The notes under the pieces were generated by a model. The model searched no databases. It had not been told where the DNA came from and worked only from the letters and a program-made list of their open reading frames with translations. From Isoptericola halotolerans (GTDB lineage Bacteria; Actinomycetota; Actinomycetes; Actinomycetales; Cellulomonadaceae), in assembly GCF_003003075.1 (NCBI RefSeq), contig NZ_PVTX01000008.1:1-64000 (forward strand): a stretch of DNA of 64,000 bases, given 5' to 3'. Made by a program: the position numbers and the translations under genes. Position 1 is the first letter of the stretch; every line of letters begins with the position of its first letter. Shown here piece by piece: positions 21,929 to 49,194 of the stretch.

Positions 21929-21940
21929 CGCTTCGCCCCG

Positions 21941-22027
21941 CGAGGTAGTGGCCCGCCCGGCGAGGTAGTGGCCCGTCCGCCGAGGTAGTGGTGCGCCACT
22001 ACCTCGGCGGGCGGGCCACTACCTCGC
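21941..22027. repeat. Triple CGAGGTAGTGG repeat forming a 32-bp hairpin
   Basis: CGAGGTAGTGG occurs three times at a 20-base period (21941, 21961, 21981) and twice inverted (21996, 22016). Positions 21960-21991 pair with 21996-22027 over 32 bp with a single G-U and a 4-base loop. The first copy (from 21940) can replace the second as a pairing partner. It sits between the convergent alpha-glucosidase and dusB genes, so it may terminate both. The extra repeat structure looks like a dispersed palindromic element. Confidence 0.85.
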
Positions 22028-26798: not shown

Positions 26799-27808
26799 TG
26801 ACCCGACGCCTCGCACTGCCCGTCGCAGCCGCCCTCCCGCTCGCCCTCGTCCTGGCCGCCTGCGGCACCGATGGCGGCGGGGCCGGCGGGGCCGGCGACG
26901 ACGACGGCACCGTCCAGGTGCTCGCCTCCTTCTACCCGCTGCAGTACGTGGCCGAGCAGGTCGGCGGCGACCTGGTGAGCGTCGACAACCTCACTCCCCC
27001 GGCCGCCGAGCCGCACGACCTCGAGCTCGCCCCGTCCCAGGTGCGCGAGGTCGGCGACGCCGACCTGGTCGTCTTCCAGTCCGGCTTCCAGCCGGCCGTC
27101 GACGAGGCGGTCGAGGCTCGTGCACCCGAGCACGTGGTCGACGCCGCCGAGATCGTCACGCTGGAGGAGAACCCCGGTTCCGCCGAGCACGCCGACGAGC
27201 ACGAGGGCGAGACCGCCGAGGAGCACGCGGCGCACGCCGACGAGGACGAGGAGGCGGCCGGCGAGGGGCACGATCACGGCAACCTCGACCCGCACTTCTG
27301 GCTCGACCCCACCCTGCTGATCCCGGTCGCCGACGAGGTCGCCACCGAGCTCGGCGCCGCCGACCCGGACAACGCCGCCACCTACACGGCCAACGCCGAG
27401 GCGCTCACGGCGACCCTGGAGGACCTCGACGCCGAGTACGCCGCGGCGCTGGAGCCCTGCCAGGGTGAGACCCTCGTGACGAGCCACGCCGCGTTCGGCT
27501 ACCTCGCCGAGCGGTACGGCCTGTCGCAGGTCGGCATCTCCGCCCTCGACCCCGAGGCCGAGCCGTCCCCGGCCCGTCTCCGCGAGATCGGCGCCGTCGT
27601 CGAGGACAACGACGTGCAGACCATCTTCACCGAGACACTCACCAGCCCGAAGGTCGCCGAGACCCTCGCAGCCGACCTCGGCGTGTCCACCGCCGTCCTC
27701 GACCCGCTGGAAGGCCTGTCCACCGACGCCGCGGAGAGCGGGTCGGACTACATTTCAGTCATGGATGCCAACCTCGCCGCCATCACCGAAGGACTGGGCT
27801 GCGCGTGA
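26798..27808 (+). CDS. znuA: Zinc ABC transporter substrate-binding lipoprotein
   Basis: A 336-residue cluster A-I metal-binding protein. Signal peptide with lipobox LAAC (about residues 20-23), then mature domain LASFYPLQYVAEQVGGD. A His/Glu/Asp-rich loop lies around residues 127-165 (EHADEHEGETAEEHAAHADE), typical of zinc-specific members, followed by the conserved DPHFWLDP. Together with the Zur box and adjacent zur this identifies zinc uptake. It is the first gene of znuACB-zur. Confidence 0.95.
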   Translation: MTRRLALPVAAALPLALVLAACGTDGGGAGGAGDDDGTVQVLASFYPLQYVAEQVGGDLVSVDNLTPPAAEPHDLELAPSQVREVGDADLVVFQSGFQPAVDEAVEARAPEHVVDAAEIVTLEENPGSAEHADEHEGETAEEHAAHADEDEEAAGEGHDHGNLDPHFWLDPTLLIPVADEVATELGAADPDNAATYTANAEALTATLEDLDAEYAAALEPCQGETLVTSHAAFGYLAERYGLSQVGISALDPEAEPSPARLREIGAVVEDNDVQTIFTETLTSPKVAETLAADLGVSTAVLDPLEGLSTDAAESGSDYISVMDANLAAITEGLGCA

Positions 27809-45668: not shown

Positions 45669-46022
45669 TCAGGCGGGGCTCCATCCGAGCTGGGTTCCGG
45701 CGATGACGTGCCCGTGCACGTGGAAGACGCTCTGACCCGCGCGCGGGCCGGAGTTGAAGATGAACCGGTACTGCCCGTCCGCGAGGTCGTGCGCCACGGT
45801 GTCGGCGACCTCGACCACCTCCGCGAGCAGTCCCGGGTCGGCGGCCGCGAGCACGGAGACGTCCCCGTGGTGCTCCTTGGGGACGACGAGGACGTGCACG
45901 GGGGCCTGCGGGTCGATGTCCCGGAACGCGACGACGCGCTCGGTGGTCTCCACGACGTCGGCAGGCAGCTCCCCGGCGACGATCCTGCAGAACAGGCACT
46001 CGGGGTCGGTGGTGTCGTTCAT
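45669..46022 (-). CDS. HIT-family nucleotide-binding hydrolase
   Basis: A 117-residue HINT-type protein hydrolysing nucleoside phosphoramidates or dinucleotides. The His triad FHVHGHVI is intact, and CLFCRIVAGELPADVV forms the N-terminal zinc-binding CxxC. ATG 46022 matches the family N-terminus; a GTG three codons upstream is possible. The gene begins about ten bases after the rsmE stop. Confidence 0.95.
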   Translation of the reverse strand: MNDTTDPECLFCRIVAGELPADVVETTERVVAFRDIDPQAPVHVLVVPKEHHGDVSVLAAADPGLLAEVVEVADTVAHDLADGQYRFIFNSGPRAGQSVFHVHGHVIAGTQLGWSPA

Positions 46023-46032
46023 ACCGTCCACG

Positions 46033-46812
46033 CTACCGCCACCGGCCCAGACGTTCGCTCAGGAGCGCCACGGCGACCGGCCCGGCGGTCGAGGTGCGCA
46101 GCACGTGCGGCCCGAGGCGCGCCGCCGTCACCCCCGCGTCGGCGAGGGACGCGAGCTCGGCCTCGCCGATGCCGCCCTCCGGCCCCACGACCACGAGCAG
46201 CTCCGGTGCGGCAGCCGGCGAGCCCGCCTCCGGGGCGGGCAGCGCGACCTCCGCGAGCGCCGTCGTCGCCTCCTCGTGGAGGACGACGACGACTCCCCCG
46301 GCCCCGACGACCTCCCGAGTCCGTGCCGCGAGCTGCTTGGTGGTGACGTGCTCGGACACGGCGGGCAGCCAGGCCCGGCGCGCCTGCTTCACGGCGGAGC
46401 GCACGGTCGACTCCCACCGCGCCCGGGACTTCGCGGCCCGCGGCCCGCGCCAGACGACGACGGACCGGTCCGCCTGCCACGGCACGACGGCGTCCACCCC
46501 GACCTCCACGGCGGCCTCGACCGCGAGGTGGTCGCGGTCGCCCTTGGCGAGCGCCTGCACGAGGGTGAGCACGACGGCGGGCGCGGGCTCGGTGACGCGC
46601 TCGGCGACCCGCAGCCGGACGTCGGTGCCCTCGACGGAGTCGACGACGGCGCGCAGCCGGGTGCCGGCGCCGTCGACCACGTCGAGGCTCTCGCCGGGGC
46701 CCCGCCGCTGGACGACCCCGGCGTGGCGGCCCTCGTCGCCGCCCAGCACGAAGACCTCGCCCGGGGCGACCCGGCTCAGGTCGTCCGCCGAGAGGAAGAC
46801 GGGCGCGCTCAC
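46033..46812 (-). CDS. rsmE: 16S rRNA (uracil1498-N3)-methyltransferase
   Basis: A 259-residue SPOUT methyltransferase modifying U1498 of 16S rRNA with S-adenosylmethionine. It has an N-terminal PUA-like domain (APVFLSADDLSRVAPGEVFV), AKGDRDHLAVEAAVEVGVDA, VGPEGGIGEAEL and the knot motif LGPHVLRTSTAGPVAVALLS. I chose GTG 46812 because it overlaps the stop of the preceding 30-residue mini-ORF (GTGA) and has GAGAGG 8 bases before it. Three more codons upstream are open but less likely. Confidence 0.93.
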   Translation of the reverse strand: MSAPVFLSADDLSRVAPGEVFVLGGDEGRHAGVVQRRGPGESLDVVDGAGTRLRAVVDSVEGTDVRLRVAERVTEPAPAVVLTLVQALAKGDRDHLAVEAAVEVGVDAVVPWQADRSVVVWRGPRAAKSRARWESTVRSAVKQARRAWLPAVSEHVTTKQLAARTREVVGAGGVVVVLHEEATTALAEVALPAPEAGSPAAAPELLVVVGPEGGIGEAELASLADAGVTAARLGPHVLRTSTAGPVAVALLSERLGRWR

Positions 46813-46901
46813 GCCGCACACCTCTCACGTGACCACTGCGGTGCCTCGCTCCGCCACACCTCGTACCTCGGCGTACCTCCGCGGGGGCTCCTCGCGCTCA
46901 C
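46809..46901 (-). CDS. Mini-ORF B, coupled to rsmE
   Basis: A 30-residue ORF starting VSARSPRGGTPRYEVWRSEA and ending ...WSRERCAA. Its GTG overlaps the TGA of mini-ORF A and its TGA overlaps the rsmE GTG. It is preceded by GAGAGG in the upstream unit. It is Arg/Trp-rich and has no recognisable domain. It may be a translational coupler more than a functional peptide. Expression is not proven by sequence alone. Confidence 0.55.
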   Translation of the reverse strand: MSARSPRGGTPRYEVWRSEAPQWSRERCAA

Positions 46902-46990
46902 GTCGCACACCTCTCAAGTGACCACTGCGGTGCCTCGCTCCGCCACACCTCGTACCTCGGCGTACCTCCGCGGGGGCTCCTCGCGCTCAC
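46898..46990 (-). CDS. Mini-ORF A, coupled to dnaJ and mini-ORF B
   Basis: A 30-residue ORF, near-identical to mini-ORF B (ends ...WSLERCAT; two residues differ). Its GTG lies one base after the dnaJ stop (TGACGTG), so re-initiation by terminating ribosomes is plausible even without a separate ribosome site. Its TGA overlaps the GTG of mini-ORF B. Confidence 0.55.
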   Translation of the reverse strand: MSARSPRGGTPRYEVWRSEAPQWSLERCAT

Positions 46991-46991
46991 G

Positions 46992-48113
46992 TCAGCGGCC
47001 GCTCAGCTTGTCCTTGAGGCGCGAGAAGACGCCGGGGTGCGCTGCCACGAGCCGCGGCTCGGGCCGCTCCTCCCCCCGCAGGCCGGCGAGCTGGTGCAGC
47101 AGGGTGGTCTGCTCCTCGTCCAGCTCGGTGGGCACCTGCACCTCGACGTGGATGTTCAGGTCGCCGCGACCGTTGCCGTGCAGGTGCCCGACGCCGAGGC
47201 CCTTGAGGGTGAGGATCTGGCCCGGCTGGGTGCCGGGGCGCAGGTCGATCTCCTCGACGCCGTCGAGGGTGTCCAGCTCGAGCACGGTCCCGAGCGCCGC
47301 GGCCGTCATGGGCACCGGGAGGGTGCAGTGCAGGTCGTCGCCGCGGCGCACGAAGACGTCGTGGGCCTTCTCGCGGATCTCGACGTACAGGTCCCCGGCG
47401 GGGCCGCCGCCCGGGCCGACCTCGCCCTGCGAGGTCAGCTTGATCCGGGTGCCGGTGTCGACGCCGGCCGGGACGTTGACCGTCAGGCTCCGGCGGGAGC
47501 GGACGCGGCCGTCGCCGGAGCACTCCGCGCACGGCTCCGGGATGACCGTGCCGAAGCCCTGGCACGCGGCGCACGGGGCCGTCGTCATGACCTGTCCGAG
47601 GAACGAGCGGGCGACGCGCTGGACGTTGCCGCGGCCGTGGCAGACGTCGCAGGTGCGCACGTCGGTGCCGGGCCGGCACCCGTTGCCGCCGCAGGTGCCG
47701 CACACCACCGCGGTGTCGACCTGCAGCTCGCGCTTGGCGCCGAACGTGGCCTCGACGAGGTCGATGTCCATGCGCACGAGCGCGTCCTGGCCCCGTCGGG
47801 CGCGCGGCACGGGCCCGGAGGCCTGGCCGCCGCCGAAGAACGTCTCGAAGATGTCCTGGAAGCCGAAGCCCTGGCCGAAGCCGCCGCCGGCGCCCCCGCC
47901 CGGTGCCGTCGGGTCGACACCGTGGTCGTACTGCTCGCGCTTCTCGCGGTTCGACAGCACCTCGTAGGCGCGGGCGACGTCCTTGAACTTCTCCTCACCG
48001 GCAGCCCCGGCGACGTCCGGGTGCAGCTCGCGGGCGAGCTTGCGGTATGCCTTCTTGATCTGCTCGGGCGAGGCGTCGCGCTGGACGCCCAGGGTCTCGT
48101 AGTAGTCGGTCAC
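46992..48113 (-). CDS. dnaJ: Chaperone protein DnaJ
   Basis: A 373-residue Hsp40 that stimulates DnaK. J domain residues 1-65 with the HPD in [10 protein letters not shown], Gly/Phe-rich linker ([20 protein letters not shown]), four zinc-centre CxxCxGxG repeats ([32 protein letters not shown]) and the C-terminal peptide-binding domain. GTG 48113 gives the family start [10 protein letters not shown]. It is directly downstream of hrcA and shares its CIRCE-controlled promoter. It is probably the DnaJ2 paralogue. Confidence 0.96.
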
Positions 48114-48162
48114 AGTTCTCTCTTCGGTGACGTACGCAGTCTGGTCAGGGTTTCCGCGTGGC

Positions 48163-49194
48163 TCAGCTCGGCAGCACGCGGGAGAGGTAGCGGGCCACGG
48201 CATGCACCGAGGCGATGGTGCCGGGGTAGTCCATCCGGGTGGGCCCGATCGAGCCGAGGGTCGCGACGGGGTCGCCGCCGGACCCGTAGTCGGAGACGAC
48301 GACCGAGGCCTCGGTGAGGCCGTCGAGCCGGTTCTCGTGACCGATCCGCACGCCCACGCCGTCGCTCGACATCTCGGTCAGCAGACCCAGCAGGATGACC
48401 TGTTCCTCGAGCGCCTCCAGCACCGGGCTGAGCCCCTGCTCGAAGGTGGACTCGGAACGGGCGAGGTTGGCCGTGCCCGCGAGCACGATCCGTTCCTCGT
48501 TCTCCTGGCCGAGGGTGTCGACCACCAGGTCCGCCACGGCGCCGGCGACACCCGCCAGGTCCGGGCCGACGGCCTCCACCACGGCGGCGAAGGCGACGGG
48601 CAGCTCCGCGAGCCGCTTGCCGGCGGCGGCGGCGTTGAAGCGGGCACGCAGCTCGGCCAGGGTGACCTCGTCGAGAGCGCTGACGCCGTCGGCGGTGCCG
48701 GGCAGCTCGCAGAAGCGCTGCTCGACCCGCCCCGTGTCGGTGATGACGACGACGAGCAGGCGGTCGCGGGCCACCGGGACGATCTCGAGGTGGCGCAGCC
48801 CGGACCGTCGCAGCGACGGGTACTGCACCACGGCCACCTGGCCGGTGAGCTGGGCGATCAGCCGGCCCGCCCGGACCAGGACGTCGTCCAGGTCGACGGC
48901 CTCGGACAGGAACGTCTCGATGGCCCGCTTCTGCGGGATCGTCAGGGGCCGCACCTCGGCGAGACGGTCGACGAAGAGCCGGTAGCCGGCGTCGGTGGGC
49001 ACCCGCCCGGCCGACGTGTGCGGCTGGGCGATGTATCCCTCCTCCTCGAGCGCCGCCATGTCGTTGCGGATCGTGGCGGGCGAGACACCGAGGCGGTGCC
49101 GCTCGGTCAGGACGCGCGAGCCCACGGGCTCCCGGGTGGTGACGTAGTCCTCCACGATGGCGCGCAGCACCTCGAGACGACGTTCCTCGCTCAC
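48163..49194 (-). CDS. hrcA: Heat-inducible transcription repressor HrcA
   Basis: A 343-residue repressor of heat-shock genes. Winged-helix N-terminus with [20 protein letters not shown] and [18 protein letters not shown], followed by the dimerisation/GAF-like domain. GTG 49194 fits the family. It starts the long minus-strand operon and is preceded by a CIRCE element, so it autoregulates. GroE folding status usually modulates HrcA activity. Confidence 0.97.

Follow-up and report, generated by a model that had tools for sequence, protein, structure and literature searches.

Interspersed 89-bp units at stop/start junctions of Isoptericola and Ruania resemble mycobacterial MIRUs and are probably mobile

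In Isoptericola halotolerans, two tandem 89-bp units lie between dnaJ and rsmE, within the 64,000-nucleotide stretch of DNA analysed here (the window: positions 1 to 64,000 of contig NZ_PVTX01000008.1, assembly GCF_003003075.1). We consider it very probable that these units belong to a family of small interspersed mobile elements, similar to the mycobacterial interspersed repetitive units (MIRUs), that usually sit at the DTGA of stop/start junctions and whose reading frame relays ribosomes, the encoded peptide itself being dispensable. The layout given in a preliminary description of this DNA was borne out, both by the sequence and by Tandem Repeats Finder (TRF), for which this junction is the top of 25 rows in the window (period 89, 2.1 copies, 98% match, score 366). 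dnaJ, both units and rsmE all lie on the minus strand (Table 1). As first described, each unit holds a 30-residue mini-ORF (open reading frame) running from GTG to TGA, with GAGAGG ahead of the next start, and the stops overlap the following starts by 4 nt, the last of these being that of rsmE. The GTG of mini-ORF 1 begins one base past the dnaJ stop, and both base differences between the units alter an amino acid. The 10 bases that had been assigned to a third unit are rather the native rsmE start, which is present in relatives without a full unit. Coupling survives whenever a coupled unit is duplicated exactly, so the phase-lock of unit 2 is not extra evidence on its own; the evidence for a phase rule comes from copies at other loci.

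Such copies are numerous. A sequence-only model built from 24 copies detected the unit in 11 of the 18 genomes of the window's genus (the Isoptericola group), with 50 matches at E up to 0.01, and in all eight genomes of a second genus (g48, the Ruania group), with 116 matches at E up to 1e-4 and between 2 and 24 in each genome. I. halotolerans itself (G000 in our numbering of genomes) has another copy, 80% identical, that separates a geranylgeranyl-reductase-like gene (GGR) from nuoA; in addition, an ORF that starts with MSARSPRAGTPRRR has a 32-base fragment of the unit at its beginning (L003:1501-1532; G000:C2:262095-262126). The unit thus recurs elsewhere both in its own genome and in relatives, the two places where it had been suggested to look, and the idea of a mobile micro-repeat is strongly supported by this dispersed family together with the empty sites and target duplication described below. 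A pattern scan of named genomes found 20 stretches, in Isoptericola, Krasilnikoviella, Ruania and Nocardioides; Isoptericola, Ruania and Nocardioides represent three families in two orders. Among the 221 genomes of the family to which the window's genus belongs, 27 had any match at E 0.01, with strong matches only in that genus. A draw of 394 genomes from the class gave five with a match at E 0.001: two from the window's genus, one strong match in family f45 (G857) and two weak ones. The viral contigs (searched by exact pattern) and plasmids gave no match. Weak model matches elsewhere in the family and order (below 25 bits) were mostly unrelated by eye and were set aside, except for L062, L063 and L066. 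These three, from genome G210 (L062) and genus g19 (L063 and L066), look like diverged relatives, a second subfamily in another genus; in L063 and L066 the distance between the DTGA motifs is likewise 89 bp and the frame is open, and in L066 a second unit begins before the contig ends. In L117 and L119 (around position 1501; G924 and G857, family f45), a related core directly follows a stop codon (GAGGAGTGAGGCGGAGGTACGCCGAG... in L117) instead of lying at a start, and is perhaps a 3′-end relative of the family.

For counting purposes, 260 nhmmer hits were reduced to 158 distinct ones, from which two low-scoring partial hits (in L201 and L032) were dropped. The resulting census holds 156 distinct copies at 125 loci (43 Isoptericola-group, 108 Ruania-group and 5 Nocardioides-like) and excludes the weak-hit loci L064-L077 and L106-L110 plus a few weak matches from the genus and the Ruania group. 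Identical copies are merged: unit 1 at the dnaJ–rsmE junction of G007 equals that of G000, so unit 2 of G007 is counted as a leading copy. The copies form 128 arrays, of which 101 are single, 26 double and one triple. Gene frames come from a codon-composition script, without annotation, and the names GGR, nuoA and MaoC-type were given from translations, without a family search. Single linkage of the downstream proteins placed 105 arrays in 67 downstream-gene clusters.

Empty sites at three junctions show that the element is inserted exactly at DTGA: one DTGA is present when the site is empty, and the element plus two when it is filled. GGR–nuoA is occupied in G002 but not in G009, and both share the flank ATGAGTCACGACGAGCACAAGGAAGTGGTCGGAATGCGAGCGCAG; at a junction with a MaoC-type gene, G001 carries the element where G000 reads ...GCCTCATGAGGGACGAG. 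At dnaJ–rsmE, 13 of the 18 genus genomes have no full unit, and seven of these read TGACGTGAGCGC(G/A)CC. Two more (G012 and G011) are one base off this sequence, and G001, G010, G013 and G014 have other short spacers. The spacers of G014 (L221) and G010 (L225) are short; to the eye, the one in G014 looks like the 3′ tail of the element (..GGGGAGCACGGCGTGAGCGCG) and may be what is left of a deleted unit. The GGR–nuoA copies of G012 and G008 appear by eye to be internally deleted and decayed, respectively. The empty GGR–nuoA site of G009 (L262:1442-1504) contains a 20-codon ORF from the GGR stop to the nuoA start (MSHDEHKEVVGMRAQGRERR, then stop), which looks as if an older coupling ORF had been present.

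Of 127 leading copies, 118 have the adjoining upstream gene on the same strand, and 100 of the 127 (93 of 113 if only clear coding frames are counted) begin with a DTGA whose TGA serves as the stop codon of the upstream gene. This holds for 26/35 copies in Isoptericola, 70/88 in Ruania and 4/4 of the Nocardioides-like set, whereas only 29 of 978 other DTGA sites (86 loci, same scoring) coincide with an upstream stop. In the 81 of 119 arrays that have the upstream stop at the element and lack a host start resembling the element, the 4-mers that precede the first and the terminal DTGA agree more often than in shuffles (z of 3.3, 4.9, 5.3 and 7.8 for positions -4 to -1), and the D of DTGA is correlated between array ends (p 0.002). 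These results suggest that about 8 bp of the target, NNNNDTGA, were duplicated. Support is weak on the far side of DTGA, where only +1 and +4 exceed shuffles; the idea that those bases also belong to the duplicated stretch lost ground once arrays with element-like starts and those lacking an upstream stop at the element were removed. There is also an isolated excess of identity at -9 (reached by 22 of 2000 shuffles). A target-site duplication is a feature shared with DNA transposons and miniature inverted-repeat transposable elements (MITEs), and is seen here in the 81 arrays and in the empty/filled pairs, weakly so on the 3′ side. The Shine-Dalgarno match at the element's 3′ end is slightly better than that at the old junction (Wilcoxon p 0.026, 81 arrays); as this gain is only slight, we do not claim that the element brings a better ribosome-binding site.

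An unlikely alternative is that the units spread by homologous recombination or gene conversion at pre-existing gene starts resembling ATGAGCGC, rather than by transposition. The element and the host do have TGAGCGC in common at the dnaJ–rsmE target, and 15 of the 119 arrays run, past the terminal DTGA, into host sequence that agrees with the element's 5′ end at nine or more of 10 bases; with those arrays removed, the 3′-side duplication is weak. However, the targets ATGAGTCACGAC (GGR–nuoA) and ATGAGGGACGAG share little with the element beyond ATGAG, the 4-mer ahead of the D, although variable between copies, agrees with the target more than shuffles do, and copies precede 67 downstream-gene clusters. 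The element-like gene starts are apparently partial units used as in-frame N-terminal extensions. Host genes starting with the element's 5′ end (MSARSP...) lie at L003 (the I. halotolerans ORF above), L103, L145, L156, L157 and L158.

At dnaJ–rsmE itself, occupancy varies from zero to two full units across the 18 genus genomes: G000, G007 and G002 have two, and G004 and G006 have one. The tandem units differ by two bases in G000 and by one in G007, while units of those two genomes differ from one another by 4-7, which implies that these two arrays turn over. The G002 pair differs by eight bases and is older. The preliminary description had called the arrangement expandable, which fits in part, the pairs of G000 and G007 being near-identical and that of G002 older. 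At least five changes, three of them forced by supported branches, are needed to explain the filled state on a 19-row DnaJ tree; insertion, loss or both have recurred here.

This variation in unit number (2, 2, 2, 1, 1), together with the succession of hrcA, dnaJ, rsmE, a HIT-protein gene and phoH (from profile matches), which makes a plausible stress operon, could be taken to mean that the repeat is a selected, expandable coupler or attenuator setting the ratio of DnaJ to RsmE protein. We find such a locus-specific regulator improbable: 13 of the 18 genus genomes, including the nearest sampled relative (G012), do without a full unit there, the element precedes 67 clusters of different downstream genes, and the predicted folds of six copies are no better than those of shuffled sequences (z -1.28 to 0.51). 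A structured RNA element was dropped on the same comparison, together with a search of Rfam, which gave no match above the gathering score in 45900-48200 (two were sub-threshold), and the scant covariation of an alignment fold. The fold predicted from an alignment of 24 copies has 22 pairs, six of them with at least one both-sides change, and a covariation term of -0.73 kcal/mol, a value that comes without a control. A special role at dnaJ–rsmE is thus not supported, and neither are the attenuator and the dedicated link between chaperone and methyltransferase that had been proposed.

What the copies do share is their phase. The length from DTGA to the downstream start or next unit is 2, 0 or 1 modulo 3 in 89, 40 and 7 of 136 units, respectively (of the remaining 20 of the 156, 15 are ended by DTGA alone and five have no end). 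Taking the majority length for each downstream-gene cluster, the split is 52/12/3 of 67 (chi-square p 6e-14). A length of 2 mod 3 produces the stop/start overlap, and with 0 mod 3 the mini-ORF continues in frame into the next gene as a fusion; this second length class is mostly 87 and 90 bp. The terminal TGA is where the frame ends for 75 of the 108 units flanked by a gene and for 10 of the 28 that precede another unit; in-frame fusions make up 40 of the 51 units without that stop. The terminal 4-mer is DTGA in 105 of 108 cases, a count biased upward because the script favoured in-frame starts followed by A; the mod-3 counts are unaffected. The element's frame has no internal stop in 74 of 74 distinct 89-bp copies (two are broken if stops are counted one codon further), whereas stops interrupt 31 and 29 copies in the two alternative frames. 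If the observed substitutions are scattered at random, 17.2 copies should be broken (sd 3.6), and shuffling of columns leads to 8.0 (sd 2.3); none of 1000 trials of either control gave as few as observed. The substitutions nevertheless show no codon-position bias (404/310/359), from which we conclude that an open frame in the right phase persists and the peptide does not. The coupler of the preliminary description therefore survives as a property that the element preserves, though not as a special function at dnaJ–rsmE.

Three further explanations are less likely still. The unit might be kept for a promoter or other transcription signal serving the downstream gene, as reported for a MIRU at senX3-regX3 in an excerpt of PMC4213456. 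That precedent is the only point in its favor; a consensus scan of 46700-47100, a poor test in GC-rich actinobacteria, found no sigma-70-like promoter or terminator-like site, and a promoter would explain neither the phase rule nor the open frame, so we give this idea very little credence. Still harder to believe is a functional small protein kept for its sequence: although the 30-codon frame is open in all 74 copies, its substitutions ignore codon position, close pairs of copies (which are not independent) differ by 72 non-synonymous versus 15 synonymous changes, and neither mini-ORF peptide matched Pfam at E up to 1. The substitution data bear out the preliminary description, in which a function of the peptide already lacked support. 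The idea that the repeat arose by chance as a local tandem duplication and has no relatives, for which one could cite the mere presence of two near-identical units here, is refuted for practical purposes by the dispersed copies in the same genome and in other genera and by the precise empty sites.

We therefore return to a mobile, frame-preserving element. Ribosomes finishing the upstream gene would re-initiate on the mini-ORF, and its terminal overlap would hand them on to the downstream start. An insertion inside an operon would then be nearly silent and hence tolerated, and so would a tandem duplication. At dnaJ–rsmE, the element would have landed on the GTGA start of rsmE and then duplicated, and the repeat is most likely tolerated there because it relays ribosomes, a relay that we infer from the conservation of the frame. 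Movement is presumed to rely on machinery acting in trans.

Several observations weigh against this picture. The relay, as just said, is deduced from frame conservation. No transposase or terminal inverted repeat turned up, although no systematic search was made: for inverted repeats, this refers to a repeat scan of one single-copy locus and to the consensus as judged by eye. In 27 of the 127 leading copies the upstream stop is not exactly at the element, and the window's own site is among the exceptions, the dnaJ stop lying one base upstream of the GTGA. Seven of the 136 units break phase, and the 15 units ended by DTGA alone give 8/3/4 for 2/0/1 mod 3. At GGR–nuoA, where the nuoA start lies 53-65 bases past the element, three copies are 89 bp long and two, in G000 and G007, are 88 bp and have lost phase. 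The filled state at dnaJ–rsmE is no more clustered on the DnaJ tree than shuffled labels, so that gains and losses there are indistinguishable. Finally, the copies are related by descent, which makes all of our p-values too optimistic, and the upstream flanks are nearly the same in 12 pairs of leading copies; the phase signal does survive clustering by downstream gene.

The closest known parallel is the MIRU. Supply et al. in 1997 reportedly placed MIRU insertions at DTGA coupling sites. Excerpts of the papers cited here describe MIRUs as 40-100-bp units at 41 places in H37Rv (PMC2734929), many of them in 5′ untranslated regions (PMC4128351), with units of 77 and 53 bp between senX3 and regX3 (PMC2453075, PMC4213456). 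They are further described as apparently mobile, inserting at start codons, with an internal ORF coupled at -4 nt spacing (PMC12548453); effects on polycistronic translation have been proposed, and their function is called not well understood (both PMC2734929). Our element likewise is a short interspersed repeat, often tandem, with a mini-ORF coupled to its neighbor, lying mostly between co-directional genes along the direction of transcription, and its 89 bp, like the 77 and 53 bp of those excerpts, is 2 mod 3. To our knowledge, how MIRUs move is also not well understood. Our element differs from MIRUs in its length of 89 rather than 77 or 53 bp, in its second length class, which fuses in frame, and in its hosts: an excerpt of PMC4213456 restricts MIRUs to M. 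leprae and the M. tuberculosis complex, and Isoptericola/Krasilnikoviella, Ruania and Nocardioides fall outside that range. We call the element MIRU-like, and not a MIRU, on the strength of a likeness to the published description rather than to MIRU sequence. Among 396 genomes of the PE-rich genus g124, none contains an exact match to a senX3 primer pattern and 17 contain one with a single mismatch, and our model had no match in at least 24 g124 genomes of the class draw, with 10 candidates scored per genome; most species of that kind are said to lack MIRUs.

Other systems resemble the element in part. Coupled upstream ORFs and leader peptides are also short ORFs that pass ribosomes to a nearby start, a delivery described in an excerpt of PMC12548453, but those are fixed parts of their operons, whereas the element is dispersed, mobile and variable in copy number, with a drifting peptide. 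The scattered copies are also reminiscent of other bacterial repeats. Rickettsia palindromic elements (RPEs), repetitive extragenic palindromes (REP) and enterobacterial repetitive intergenic consensus sequences (ERIC) are small, non-autonomous and scattered, and some RPEs insert in frame into genes. Unlike them, the element has no fold beyond shuffles and targets stop/start junctions, not gene interiors or gene ends.

Searches of open-access literature, subscription papers not being covered, showed no report of such elements outside mycobacteria, and as far as they show, a MIRU-like mobile coupling cassette is new for these genera. MIRUs underlie a standard tuberculosis typing method, and a parallel family with many copies, empty sites and a phase rule makes their function and movement testable outside pathogens. 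The 67 downstream-gene clusters also constitute natural evidence that translation through a stop/start overlap matters, since the frame is kept while the peptide drifts; how cleanly these two separate surprised us. For annotation, the family is a caution: a 30-aa ORF of this sort, or an N-terminus of the MSARSP type, can derive from a mobile element and need not be a protein or a native start. It is also possible, although we would not yet bet on it, that MIRUs are one branch of a widespread class of actinobacterial mobile "coupling cassettes": non-autonomous, DTGA-targeting elements, selected for an open, translated frame and not for a peptide. The frame would keep such elements hidden from the operons that they enter and would have two working phases (2 mod 3 for stop/start relay, 0 mod 3 for in-frame N-terminal extension).

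Table 1. The dnaJ–rsmE junction of I. halotolerans in window coordinates.
Feature	Position	Strand	Basis
dnaJ (chaperone), upstream gene	46992..48113	-	NCBIfam NF010871, 527.5 bits (cut-off 502), window:46992-48116
dnaJ stop TGA	46994-46992	-	Read from sequence
Element unit 1, 89 bp, DTGA to next DTGA	46902..46990	-	Member of dispersed family
Mini-ORF 1, GTG..TGA, 30 aa; TGA overlaps next GTG by 4 nt	46898..46990	-	
Unit 1 Shine-Dalgarno-like GAGAGG, 8 nt before unit 2 GTG	46910..46915	-	Sequence
Element unit 2, 89 bp, two differences from unit 1	46813..46901	-	TRF and comparison
Mini-ORF 2, GTG..TGA, 30 aa; TGA overlaps rsmE GTG by 4 nt	46809..46901	-	
Unit 2 Shine-Dalgarno-like GAGAGG, 8 nt before rsmE GTG	46821..46826	-	Sequence
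Native target, the rsmE start GTGAGCGCG	46804..46812	-	GTGAGCGCG or GTGAGCGCA at empty sites of relatives
rsmE start GTG	46812-46810	-	
rsmE (16S rRNA m3U1498 methyltransferase), downstream gene	46033..46812	-	NCBIfam NF008693, 283 bits (cut-off 210); Pfam PF04452, 145.1 bits

The GTG at 48113 is our choice of start for dnaJ, a longer ORF (46992-48203) also being open, and in the list of ORFs the frame of mini-ORF 2 opens from an earlier GTG, at 46910. Elsewhere in the window, TRF reports further tandem repeats at 27187-27272 (period 45, score 123) and 21934-21991 (period 20, score 95).

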